A DNA stretch of 64,000 bases from Croceivirga sp. GTDB lineage: Bacteria; Bacteroidota; Bacteroidia; Flavobacteriales; Flavobacteriaceae. The notes beneath the pieces were generated by a model. It did no database searches. It had not been told where the DNA came from and saw only the letters and a program-made list of their open reading frames with translations. The translations under genes were made by a program, and so were the position numbers. Within the stretch, counting starts at the first letter, position 1; every line of letters starts with the position of its first letter. Shown piece by piece: positions 13,932-17,914 of the stretch. The stretch is from positions 248,001-312,000 of the forward strand of contig JANQSA010000001.1 in the NCBI GenBank assembly GCA_028284285.1, in the 5' to 3' direction.

Positions 13932-14387
13932 ATGGAACGAAAAGAATTTTTGCAGAGTTTAGGTGCTGGTGCAGCTTTTGCATTGATGTTTCCCTGTGTT
14001 TCCGGTTGCTCCAATGACAGTGAGGACCTGGAAACTTTTCCGGTATCTGAAGGAGTGGACTTTACTATTGACCTTACTTCCCCTGAATCAGCCCCCCTGG
14101 CGAACAATGGGGGATATATTGCCGTTAAGTCCTCGGAAGAGCTTACCTACCTGGATATTGTAGTGGCCCGTAACCTGGAAGGCGAATTGGTGGCTGCCAG
14201 TAAGATATGCAGTCATCAACAGACAGAAGAAGTTCGTTTTATTTCGGATGAAGGGGGTATTTTCTTTTGTTCCACCCATGGTTCACGTTTCAGCCAGACC
14301 GGGACCCCTTTAAATACCATTACCAACAATCCATTAAAAGTATTTAACACCGCCCTCAACGGGGATATCTTGCGTATTTTTGAATAA
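13932..14387 (+). CDS. Rieske [2Fe-2S] lipoprotein
   Basis: A 151-residue exported protein with a lipobox-like V-S-G-C26 near the N-terminus. It carries both Rieske cluster motifs: C93-S-H95 and C113-S-T-H116, spaced by 17 residues. It therefore should hold a 2Fe-2S cluster with two His and two Cys ligands. It is a stand-alone small Rieske protein, not a cytochrome bc1/b6f subunit, since no cytochrome b gene is adjacent. It heads a same-strand series with a thioredoxin-like protein, ApbE, DUF4266 and DUF3570, which points to electron transfer outside the cytoplasm. Confidence 0.88.
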   Translation: MERKEFLQSLGAGAAFALMFPCVSGCSNDSEDLETFPVSEGVDFTIDLTSPESAPLANNGGYIAVKSSEELTYLDIVVARNLEGELVAASKICSHQQTEEVRFISDEGGIFFCSTHGSRFSQTGTPLNTITNNPLKVFNTALNGDILRIFE

Positions 14388-14407
14388 TCCGACAGTTTTT
14401 TCTTCCT

Positions 14408-14842
14408 ATGAAAACAGGAATGTGTGCCATGCTCCTTTTATTTCCTATGCTGTTGCTATCCCAGCAGTGGCAGCAGGACTTTACGGTCGCACTGGAGCAG
14501 GCCAGGCAGCAGGAAAAACCTATTCTACTGGTATTTGCCGGGTCCGATTGGTGCGGACCCTGTAAGAAATTGGATAGGGACGTCTGGCAATCGGAAACGT
14601 TTAAGGAATATGCAGCACAATATTATGTATTGTACAAAGCGGATTTCCCCCGTAAAAAGAAGAATCAATTACCACAGGAAATTGTGGCAACCAACGCAGC
14701 ACTTGCGGAACGCTACAATCCAAAAGGCCACTTTCCTTTGGTGGTGCTATTGGATGAAAAAAGTGAAGTGTACGGAAAAGTAGGGTACCGGAAGGGCACC
14801 CCTCAAGACTATCTGGACCTCTTGAATTCCTACCTCCAATGA
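14408..14842 (+). CDS. exported thioredoxin-like protein
   Basis: A 144-residue protein with an N-terminal signal peptide ending near L-L-L-S-Q and a thioredoxin fold whose active site is W-C49-G-P-C52. The cis-proline region is F-P-L-V-V-L-L-D. The fold is of the thioredoxin_7 / DUF255-like type often found beside ApbE and DUF3570. A role in keeping cysteines of envelope redox proteins reduced is inferred from the neighbours; the DUF4266 lipoprotein two genes downstream has a C-G-C tail. The stop overlaps the next start (ATGA), so translation is coupled. Confidence 0.85.
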   Translation: MKTGMCAMLLLFPMLLLSQQWQQDFTVALEQARQQEKPILLVFAGSDWCGPCKKLDRDVWQSETFKEYAAQYYVLYKADFPRKKKNQLPQEIVATNAALAERYNPKGHFPLVVLLDEKSEVYGKVGYRKGTPQDYLDLLNSYLQ

Positions 14843-15846
14843 AATACCTTACGTTTTACCTTTTCTCGTTGGTGGCTTTCCTTGGGCAAGGGCAGGAAAG
14901 AAAAGAGATAAGTGTACAAAAGGTTGTAAAATTGATGGGCACTCGTTTTGAGATCACTGTGGTGGCCCCCAACGAAGAGATTGGCTACATCAATATTGAT
15001 GAGGCGGTTTCTGAGATCAAAAGAATAGAGCGTATGATCTCTTCCTGGGACGAAAACTCCGAAACTTCCCGGATCAACCGTAACGCAGGGATAGGCCCTG
15101 TTGAAGTGAGTCAGGAGCTCTTACAATTAATTGAGCGTGCCAAAAAGATCTCCGAAATTACCAGCGGCGCTTTTGACATTTCTTATGCTGCTTTGGATGG
15201 TCTATGGCGGTTTGACGGGACTATGGAACGTTTTCCATCCCGTTCGGAGATCCAGAATGCCCTGGCCAAGGTGGATTACCGGAAAATTGTCTTATATCCT
15301 GAAACGCAAACGGTATTTCTCCAGGAAAAAGGGATGCGTATTGGTTTTGGTGCTATCGGTAAAGGGTATGCCGCAGATAAAGCCAAGGAATTGTTAGTGG
15401 CCAAAGGTGTTCGTGGAGGCATTGTCAATGCTGCCGGAGACTTAACCACCTGGGGCACCAAGGCTACCGGGGAAAAATGGATGGTGGGGATTACCGATCC
15501 CCTGGACAGAAAGAGGGTGTTTTCCTGGTTACCTGTGGTGGAATCTTCTGTGGCTACTTCGGGTAACTATGAAAAATATGTGATGTATCAGGGGGAACGG
15601 TATTCCCATATCATTGACCCCCGGACCGGTTATCCCACCAAAGGCGTGAACAGCGTCTCCATTTTTGCAAAACAAGCGGAGTTATGCGACGCTTTGGCCA
15701 CTGCAGTTTTTATCATGGGACGGGACAGTGGCATCCATATGATCAACCAGTTGGATGGGGTAGAGGTGGTGGTGGTAGACAGCGAAGACAAAATCCATAA
15801 GAGTTCCGGGATTATCCTGGATGCCAATAAAAATATAGAGAAATGA
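14839..15846 (+). CDS. apbE: FAD:protein FMN transferase
   Basis: ApbE takes FMN from FAD and attaches it covalently to a Ser/Thr in target proteins outside the cytoplasm. The 335-residue protein has a signal peptide (ending near F-L-G-Q-G-Q), M-G-T-R-F-E-I-T, the FAD-binding G-A-I-G-K-G-Y-A-A-D, G-G-I-V-N-A-A-G-D-L, and the metal/FAD site H-I-I-D-P-R-T-G-Y-P. Length and motif order are standard. It overlaps both neighbours by four bases (ATGA junctions). A candidate substrate is encoded two genes downstream: the DUF3570 protein has a D-x-x-S-G-A-S motif. Confidence 0.93.
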   Translation: MKYLTFYLFSLVAFLGQGQERKEISVQKVVKLMGTRFEITVVAPNEEIGYINIDEAVSEIKRIERMISSWDENSETSRINRNAGIGPVEVSQELLQLIERAKKISEITSGAFDISYAALDGLWRFDGTMERFPSRSEIQNALAKVDYRKIVLYPETQTVFLQEKGMRIGFGAIGKGYAADKAKELLVAKGVRGGIVNAAGDLTTWGTKATGEKWMVGITDPLDRKRVFSWLPVVESSVATSGNYEKYVMYQGERYSHIIDPRTGYPTKGVNSVSIFAKQAELCDALATAVFIMGRDSGIHMINQLDGVEVVVVDSEDKIHKSSGIILDANKNIEK

Positions 15847-16052
15847 AAAAAATGTGCTTACTGTTGATGATACTGATAGGCGCCTCGTCCTGTGTGGCGG
15901 TACGGGAATATGAAAAAGTGTATCTCAATGATGTGGAAATGCAATTGAGCTTTAAGAGTTCGGAGCGTTTTGAGACCACCTTTCAGATCTATCGTGAGGG
16001 CGCTTCGGGTGCTAATGGTGGCAAATCAGGTGGTGGTTGTGGCTGTAATTAA
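15843..16052 (+). CDS. DUF4266 small lipoprotein
   Basis: A 69-residue lipoprotein with lipobox S-S-C at residue 17 and the DUF4266 core R-E-Y-E-K-V-Y-L-N-D-V-E-M. The C-terminus is glycine-rich and ends G-G-G-C-G-C-N, a possible metal or disulphide site. A near-miss to the flavinylation motif (S-G-A-N) occurs in the tail, with Asn where Ser/Thr is required. DUF4266 is usually encoded next to ApbE and DUF3570, as here. Start and stop are fixed by the ATGA overlap with apbE. The function is unknown; membership of an envelope redox complex is inferred. Confidence 0.85.
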   Translation: MKKMCLLLMILIGASSCVAVREYEKVYLNDVEMQLSFKSSERFETTFQIYREGASGANGGKSGGGCGCN

Positions 16053-16055
16053 GTG

Positions 16056-16561
16056 AAGCCCATCTTTTGCAAGTGAAACGCAGCACAAGATGCCGGCTGA
16101 ACTTACCCTGAGCGACCTGTACTGAGCTTGTTGAAGAATTGTAGGAAGTTTGTGCCCATCTTTTGCAAGTGAAACGCAGCAAAGAATGCTGGCTGAATTA
16201 ACCCTGAGCGACCTGTACTGAGCTTGTCGAAGTAAGTCGAAGGGTCTTGTTGAAGAATTGTAGGAAGTCTGTGCCCATTTGTTGCAAGTGAAACGCAGCA
16301 CAAGATGCCGGCTGAACCTACCCTGAGCGACCTGTACTGAGCTTGTCGAAGCAAGTCGAACGGTCTTGTTGAAGAATGGCAGAAAGTTTGTGCCCATCTT
16401 TTGCAAGTGAAACGCAGCAAAGAATGCTGACTGAACCTACCCTGAGCGACCTGTACTGAGCTTGTCGAAGTAAGTCGAAGGGTCTTGTTGAAGAATTGTA
16501 GGAAGTTTGTGCCCATTTTTTGCAAGTGAAACGCAGCAAAGAATGCTGGCTGAATTCACCC
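16056..16561 (+). repeat. tandem repeat array, 119-bp unit, about 4.2 copies
   Basis: Five consecutive copies begin with (GT)GCCCAT..TTGCAAGTGAAACG: 16056-16151 (96 bp), 16152-16270, 16271-16389, 16390-16508 (119 bp each) and a partial copy 16509-16561. The first copy lacks exactly 23 bp, a loss that falls between two CTTGT direct repeats, as expected for slippage. Each unit contains CCTGTACTGAGCTTGTCGAAG, a kind of sequence found dispersed in many bacterial genomes. Because 119 is not a multiple of three, the long minus-strand ORFs seen here are artefacts. The array separates the DUF4266 and DUF3570 genes and could influence mRNA structure or termination. Confidence 0.95.
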
Positions 16562-16612
16562 GTCGGTAAGGCGGGCCAAAGAGTATTAAAAAAGAGTTAA
16601 TAGGACGACACC

Positions 16613-17914
16613 TTGTTTACTACAGTTCAGGAAATCATACGAGTCAAAAAACGCAATCGGTTCGTATTGGTATTGGGGGTATTGTTGGGTACAACAGTGT
16701 CCGCCCAACAAGTGGAGACCACCTACAAAAAAAGGGTGCTTGAGGCTACTGAGTTAGAGACATTATTCAGTTTTTATAGTCAGGACGGTCCTAATGCTGC
16801 CGTAACGGGAGGGGAAGGTACGGAACAACTCACGGATGCCACATCCACCCTGGTGTTGCGAATGCCCCTGAATGCGGATGATGTGCTTACCGTAGACGCC
16901 GGTATATCAGCGTATTCATCGGCCTCCTCCAGCAATGTAAACCCATATGATGGTGACGGTATCGCCGATGCTTTTGATGCCTCCTCCGGAGCCTCGCGTA
17001 ATGATTTGCTCGCTTATTTTAGTCCTTCCTATACCCACAGTTCTGATGACAGAAATCGGATTTGGAGCGCCAAAGCCTATGTTTCTGCAGAGTATGATTA
17101 TTTTTCCGTGGGTTTTGGGGGATCGTACACTTACTTGTTCAACGAAAGAAATACGGAGCTATCATTGGGTGGTCAGGTGTATTTGGATTCCTGGAATCCG
17201 CAATATCCTATAGAACTCAGGGGCGGATTTACCGGGGTGGTACCCGGATATGATCCGGATTTTACACCCTTTGAAAACGAAAATAGGAACTCCTTTTCCC
17301 TTTCCCTGGGATTTTCTCAAATCCTGAGCAAGCGGTTACAGGTATCGGTGGTGGTAGATGCGGTATTGCAGGAGGGATTGTTGAGCACTCCGTTCCAACG
17401 TGTATATTTTGGGGATATTGATGACTTTATCTTTGATGGTTTTCAATTGGCGGATGACGTAGAGCGCTTACCGGATACCCGGTTTAAACTACCCATCGGG
17501 CTACGTTTGAATTACTATCTCAGCGATTTGGCCATTCTGCGAACCTATTATCGTTTTTATTACGATGATTGGGGCATTCTCTCGCATACGGCCAATCTGG
17601 AGATCCCATTAAAAATAAGCGATCAGTTTACGCTTTATCCCAATTATCGTTTTTATTCCCAAACCGCTGCGGATTATTTCTTTGCCAAAGACGTAGCGGT
17701 ATCTACTGCGGACTTTTACACATCGGATTTTGACCTTTCAGACTATACCGCTAATCAATATGGCTTTGGGGTACGGTATTCGGACATTTTTACCAGGTCA
17801 AAATTTTTGATTTTTGGCCTGAAAACGGTAGATCTGCGCTTTGCGTATTATGACAGGAGTACGGACTTAGATGCTACTATAATTACCCTGGCCACTACCT
17901 TTATCATTGATTGA
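16613..17914 (+). CDS. DUF3570 outer-membrane beta-barrel-like protein, candidate flavoprotein
   Basis: The 433-residue protein has a signal peptide ending near V-S-A-Q and then many alternating hydrophobic/aromatic strands, as in a beta-barrel. The DUF3570 family regularly accompanies ApbE and DUF4266. At residues 122-128 it reads D-A-S-S-G-A-S (bases 16976-16996), which fits the known ApbE target consensus D-x-x-(S/T)-G-A-(S/T); Ser128 would carry the FMN. The best start is TTG 16613, because the next in-frame starts fall inside the signal helix. It is separated from the rest of the cluster by a tandem repeat, so it may have its own transcript. Function unproven. Confidence 0.82.
   Translation: MFTTVQEIIRVKKRNRFVLVLGVLLGTTVSAQQVETTYKKRVLEATELETLFSFYSQDGPNAAVTGGEGTEQLTDATSTLVLRMPLNADDVLTVDAGISAYSSASSSNVNPYDGDGIADAFDASSGASRNDLLAYFSPSYTHSSDDRNRIWSAKAYVSAEYDYFSVGFGGSYTYLFNERNTELSLGGQVYLDSWNPQYPIELRGGFTGVVPGYDPDFTPFENENRNSFSLSLGFSQILSKRLQVSVVVDAVLQEGLLSTPFQRVYFGDIDDFIFDGFQLADDVERLPDTRFKLPIGLRLNYYLSDLAILRTYYRFYYDDWGILSHTANLEIPLKISDQFTLYPNYRFYSQTAADYFFAKDVAVSTADFYTSDFDLSDYTANQYGFGVRYSDIFTRSKFLIFGLKTVDLRFAYYDRSTDLDATIITLATTFIID

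Follow-up and report, generated by a model that had tools for sequence, protein, structure and literature searches.

The apbE-DUF3570 cluster

Croceivirga sp., of the Flavobacteriaceae, carries a cluster of five genes combining apbE with a gene of the DUF3570 family, within a stretch of 64,000 nucleotides hereafter called the window (assembly GCA_028284285.1, contig JANQSA010000001.1, positions 248,001 to 312,000 of the forward strand). The first-pass annotation of the window had described this cluster and a D122-A-S-S-G-A-S128 motif in the DUF3570 protein, and both agree with the open reading frames, with their Pfam profile matches, from which the family assignments are taken, and with the bases of the motif. 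ApbE is a flavin adenine dinucleotide (FAD):protein flavin mononucleotide (FMN) transferase, and the features concerned are the following:

13932-14387, + strand: Rieske [2Fe-2S] protein (PF00355, E 3.6e-08)
14408-14842, + strand: thioredoxin-like protein, exported, active site WCGPC (PF13899, E 2.8e-18)
14839-15846, + strand: ApbE, FAD:protein FMN transferase (PF02424, E 3.3e-88, 296.1 bits vs a cut-off of 25.6)
15843-16052, + strand: DUF4266 lipoprotein, C-terminal end GGGCGCN (PF14086, E 8.4e-19)
16613-17914, + strand: DUF3570 protein, predicted 16-strand outer-membrane barrel and putative ApbE substrate (PF12094, E 5.4e-38)
16916-16927, + strand: DUF3570 site 1, S102-S-A-S105, candidate acceptor S105 (homologous to the first SGAS site, but degenerate)
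16976-16996, + strand: DUF3570 site 2, residues 122-128 (DASSGAS), candidate FMN acceptor S128 (translation, alignment)

The DUF3570 match scores 131.3 bits vs a curated PF12094 cut-off of 25. By reading, the Rieske protein is a lipoprotein with a signal resembling those of the twin-arginine translocation pathway (RKEFL) and the N-terminus of ApbE is hydrophobic. The genome encodes three apbE in all, the cluster copy and two others, one of which adjoins nqrF; its single DsbD_TM match lies on another contig (C78), outside the cluster.

This type of cluster is already known. Passages of PMC8238504 (Meheust et al. 2021) place apbE next to DUF3570, with two conserved [S/T]GA[S/T] motifs (228 flavinylation-associated proteins), and report that the DUF3570 protein of Chlorobium luteolum is flavinylated by its ApbE, the modification being abolished only when both serines are replaced. 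Clusters with a PF13899 thioredoxin and DUF4266 are described there with DsbD or, in 316 cases, without DsbD nearby, and the conserved CXC end of DUF4266 is noted as possibly redox-active. The suggestion of the first-pass annotation that DUF3570 is the substrate of ApbE is thus correct at the family level, but it had already been published in 2021 (PMC8238504). The window shares with the published DsbD/DUF3570 system the adjacent ApbE, DUF3570, PF13899 thioredoxin-like protein and DUF4266, but it has one canonical and one degenerate site where that system has two canonical ones, its cluster contains no DsbD (typical there, although not required) and a Rieske lipoprotein is added. In the literature search DUF3570, DUF4266 and PF12094 turned up only in PMC8238504, and nothing was found joining ApbE with Rieske, thioredoxin and the outer membrane. 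A text search of the main text of PMC8238504 found no mention of a barrel, a porin or Rieske, and the passage covered of PMC10979944, the preprint of PMC11334425, mentions neither DUF3570 nor a barrel.

Family survey and conservation of the acceptor serines

The family was surveyed through 70 DUF3570 loci obtained by scanning genome contigs, 30 loci obtained alongside a search of 392 Bacteroidota genomes, of which 106 have DUF3570, and 57 further regions flanked by up to about 5 kb of sequence (the wide regions), chosen as the listed matches outside the group f18, which from its sequence pattern is presumably Chlorobia. A home-built hidden Markov model (HMM) recovered 160 DUF3570 frames across 157 loci; two of these (L016 and L105) are the same genome counted twice, with identical DUF3570 sequences. 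The apbE gene is present in 53 of the 57 wide regions, and the other four (L124, L139, L158 and L159) come from genomes that have it at another place; it is also present in 68 of the 70 genome-contig loci, the two exceptions (L007 and L067) ending at contig ends. ApbE is found in 103/106 genomes with DUF3570 vs 153/286 without it (Fisher P 2e-19, a value that overstates the case because related genomes are treated as independent). Of the three DUF3570 genomes without apbE (G181, G213 and G272), G181 keeps [ST]GAS at both sites (L085); its assembly of about 100 contigs makes it uninformative as a control lacking apbE. The pairing with DUF4266 is near-obligate, this family being present in 103/106 DUF3570 genomes and 0/286 others, and all 103 genomes with DUF4266 also have DUF3570. 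Two arrangements depart from the usual one: two tandem DUF3570 genes with one apbE and one DUF4266 (L065, 5968-8418), and a single open frame with thioredoxin-like and ApbE matches, a natural fusion (L147, 2818-4377). A natural fusion of DUF4266 with DUF3570 was looked for and set aside, the longest DUF4266 open frame listed, 210 residues, being too short.

The window protein has one [S/T]GA[S/T] motif, the SGAS of site 2; its other homologous acceptor position is S105, the last residue of an SSAS, and lies 23 residues upstream of S128. When its own residues were shuffled 20,000 times, D-x-x-[ST]-G-A-[ST] arose in 0.58% of the shuffles and [ST]-G-A-[ST] in 5.4%, so that in this serine-rich protein the short core proves little by itself and the case is carried by homology. 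S105 is invariant across 41 aligned proteins. In the alignment of 161 rows (160 frames and the window, two rows being uncovered at the loop segment since their frames end at contig ends), position 105 is Ser in 157/159 covered rows, the exceptions being Ala in L158 and L159, and at position 128 the same 159 rows have 139 Ser and 8 Thr. The residues around these serines vary. The full D-x-x-(S/T)-G-A-(S/T) motif named by the first-pass annotation is present in the window, but its Asp, at -6 from the acceptor, is found in only 35 of the 119 rows whose loop region contains an SG[AED][ST] core (in 8 of these rows the last core is site 1) and in 18 of the 78 that share the SAS/SGxS type of the window; the perfect D-x-x-S-G-A-S is thus a minority state even within its own type, and it is the serine that the family conserves. 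Classed by text pattern at the first and second sites of the loop segment, the rows comprise [ST]SAS/[ST]GA[ST] in 65 cases, the window included, [ST]SAS/[ST]SA[ST] in 31, [ST]G[AS]S/[ST]GA[ST] in 30, [ST]SAS/[ST]G[ED]S in 13, [ST]G[AS]S with no second site in 8 and other patterns in 12. In many Bacteroidota the [ST]GA[ST] core has thus decayed to [ST]SAS while apbE is still adjacent. The annotation had proposed to ask whether the motif is conserved beside apbE and regarded its loss there as a refutation; the outcome goes partly against the annotation, some members of the family lacking the core, although the acceptor serine persists.

This decay, visible in the 31 of 159 covered rows with [ST]SAS followed by [ST]SA[ST] and in the 13 with SG[ED]S at site 2, might be taken to mean that the SGAS match of the window is a relic, and that the cluster ApbE modifies another protein or nothing at all. 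Such a reading seems very improbable: the acceptor serines are retained amid varying neighbours, site 2 of the window is fully canonical, apbE remains adjacent in nearly all the wide regions and, in other proteins, substitutions of the D, G or A lower flavinylation without abolishing it, a change of the Asp having a minor effect and Gly to Ala or Ala to Val leaving about half, according to passages of PMC12052999.

As for additional sites, some f18 proteins have, by reading, an extra N-terminal SGA[ST]. In six f18-type proteins (L086, L088, L090, L095, L096 and L100) SGA[ST] or TGAS lies upstream of the usual loop and the second site of the loop is absent, a pattern of motifs which suggests that flavin sites may move or multiply. 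The DUF4266 tail, E-G-A-S-G-A-N, was rejected as a second flavinylation site, its final residue not being Ser or Thr in the rows compared and its -3 residue often being Ala.

Predicted fold and side of the acceptor loop

AlphaFold models were obtained for the window DUF3570 protein (41 sequences) and for a distant f18-type relative, L091 (37 sequences). The window model has a predicted local distance difference test score (pLDDT) of 85.3, a predicted template modelling score (pTM) of 0.79 and 16 strands, counted with one broken strand merged; the model of L091 has a pLDDT of 85.0, a pTM of 0.83 and 16 listed strands. In Foldseek searches all the 50 matches listed for each model (of 491 and 466, respectively, with E <= 0.001) are outer-membrane barrels, including OpdK, OprD, FadL, AlgE and OmpG, with a best E of about 1e-10. 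Both predictions therefore combine an even strand number with a fold match to known barrels, in keeping with the barrel-like character first attributed to the protein.

Both models put the pair of acceptor positions in the strand 3-4 loop (102-130 in the window protein, 93-114 in L091). In the window model five of the eight loops after odd strands have 14 to 33 residues and three have 2 to 4, and the turns after even strands have 4 to 13 residues; in L091 the corresponding ranges are 2 to 34 and 2 to 5. In outer-membrane proteins the long-loop side as a rule faces outside, and the acceptor loop, sitting on this side, is assigned to the outer one. Strictly invariant columns fall in the outer half in 20/21 and 29/33 cases vs 61-62% of residues (P 4e-4 and 6e-4), and with the strands alone in 11/12 and 14/18 (P 0.002 and 0.009), all values which overstate the case because residues are treated as independent. 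DUF3570 is thus predicted, on the basis of the models, to be an outer-membrane barrel with its sites on the outer side.

A barrel of this kind could also be an ordinary transporter, for instance for iron or another metal, in which a flavin would have no part in any current and would gate the channel or select its substrates. The predicted fold does resemble the OprD, FadL and AlgE channels, and some loci have VIT1-like genes (14) or RND-type homologues (13) nearby, each kind being confirmed by Pfam in one case. This role is nevertheless quite improbable, given that DUF4266, whose Cys-Gly-Cys tail suggests a thiol carrier, is nearly constant and thioredoxin is usual, and a plain channel would need neither of them.

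Thiol partners and the proposed electron path

The partner proteins keep their candidate redox residues. All the 144 DUF4266 HMM matches have Cys-Gly-Cys followed by one or two final residues (GGGCGCN in 135), with a strict lipobox pattern in 118, and WCxxC is kept in 109/110 thioredoxin-like HMM matches. The barrel part of DUF3570 is Cys-free in 141/160 frames, the commonest Cys column of the alignment being occupied in 11/161 rows; any thiol donor must therefore be another protein. The Rieske protein, which had been presented as a partner, proves to be an optional rather than a constant one: its gene lies directly upstream of the thioredoxin gene in 54/105 loci with room for it, and between thioredoxin and apbE in L046. 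Its HMM matches retain CxH...CxxH in 55/56 cases and R[RK]xF[LIVF] near the start in 52/56, and the distant forms tested were all confirmed by Pfam (5/5).

Overall, the cluster is best explained, and probably correctly so, as encoding an outer-membrane electron carrier that works from thiol to flavin and is a variant of the published ApbE/DUF3570/thioredoxin/DUF4266 system. In the loop between strands 3 and 4 of DUF3570, ApbE would attach FMN to S128 as the likeliest serine, with S105 as a possible second one, and the protein would sit in the outer membrane as a beta-barrel, its flavin loop and most of its invariant residues being at the outer mouth. The electron source would be the thioredoxin-like protein, which the DsbD encoded elsewhere in the genome would recharge and which would reduce the Cys-Gly-Cys tail of DUF4266, acting as a flexible thiol arm into the barrel; from this tail electrons would pass to FMN and then to a final acceptor, possibly ferric iron, located at the barrel mouth or outside it. 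An accessory role in one-electron transfer would fall to Rieske. Besides the conservation, the co-occurrence and the predicted folds, this carrier has in its favour the DsbD-like and VIT1-like neighbours of other loci, the DsbD of the genome itself and the separate apbE that adjoins nqrF. We infer the order and direction of the electrons, the Cys-Gly-Cys arm, the acceptor and the role of Rieske.

The opposite direction has also to be considered, with the flavin barrel taking electrons from thiols and so oxidising periplasmic proteins, and with O2 or another final acceptor. The combination of a Cys-Gly-Cys tail and a flavin recalls the thiol shuttle of Erv-type oxidases (the passages covered of PMC3401233 do not contain the CGC motif), the sequence does not reveal the electron direction, and Rieske, in the loci that have it, could be a further acceptor. 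However, a DsbD-like gene, a possible donor of reductant, lies downstream in 16 f18-type loci (one confirmed by Pfam), and most of the thioredoxin sites (87/110) read WCAPC or WCGPC, as would be usual for reductive carriers, so that an oxidase appears unlikely.

Several points weigh against the carrier that we favour. Flavinylation of DUF3570 has been demonstrated only in a relative, the Chlorobium luteolum protein, and site 1 of the window, like site 2 of many relatives, deviates from the ApbE motif. ApbE is periplasmic according to passages of PMC12052999, and would therefore have to act before barrel insertion or through the lumen. The DsbD gene is outside the cluster here, and a thioredoxin HMM match is present in 50 of the 57 wide regions. 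The Foldseek matches listed have modest TM-scores (0.31-0.50 by query length), and pLDDT falls under 50 at the sites themselves (103-108 and 125-129), the lowest values of the window model, being likewise low at 94-96 and 107-113 in L091. Finally, the outer and inner sides are assigned by a general rule and the models were read as lists of strands; closure of the barrel is a prediction, and the loop may or may not dip into the lumen.

A more specific form of this carrier is plausible, if rather doubtful: a haem-free outer-membrane conduit in which FMNs on both S105 and S128, in the mouth loop, receive their electrons through the lumen from the Cys-Gly-Cys tail of the near-obligate partner DUF4266, the ApbE target in Bacteroidota being relaxed to [ST]-[GS]-A-S. 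Were this relaxed target true, many flavinylated proteins would escape motif searches. In MtrCAB porin-cytochrome conduits electrons cross the outer membrane via a barrel by means of haems; the proposal has the barrel route in common with them but uses flavin and thiols. Erv/ALR thiol oxidases bind FAD in the enzyme itself and are not known to involve a barrel. What the proposal shares with them is electron exchange between two paired cysteines and a flavin (PMC3401233, in part). The FMN-bind proteins of the NqrC/RnfG type likewise carry ApbE-attached FMN outside the cytosol, but are small soluble domains with a distinct fold, as described in passages of PMC11334425.

While DUF3570 flavinylation and the cluster type are already known from PMC8238504, the present analysis adds the predicted barrel location, the relaxed motif, the near-obligate DUF4266 pairing and the Rieske extension. 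If the proposed path is true, thiols and a flavin in a barrel carry electrons outside Gram-negative cells without cytochromes, in a type of system present in 106 of the 392 sampled Bacteroidota genomes, and the target rule of ApbE widens beyond [S/T]GA[S/T].

Around the cluster lie genes of housekeeping type, a purM-like gene and prfA, assigned by their Pfam matches (AIRS domains for purM), and a pyrF-like gene assigned by reading. Their synteny extends over 43 to 45 loci, but they were not counted as members of the system. In 16613-16720 the DUF3570 frame has TTG as its first start codon and no ATG precedes the signal peptide; the true start may lie elsewhere. Just before this frame there is a repeat block some 500 bases long. 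The block itself, at 16058-16554 between the DUF4266 and DUF3570 genes, consists of tandem units of about 119 bases (3.6 copies, 90% match), and its repeated word CTGAGCTTGTCGAAG occurs four times in the window with at most one mismatch, always within 16058-16554.

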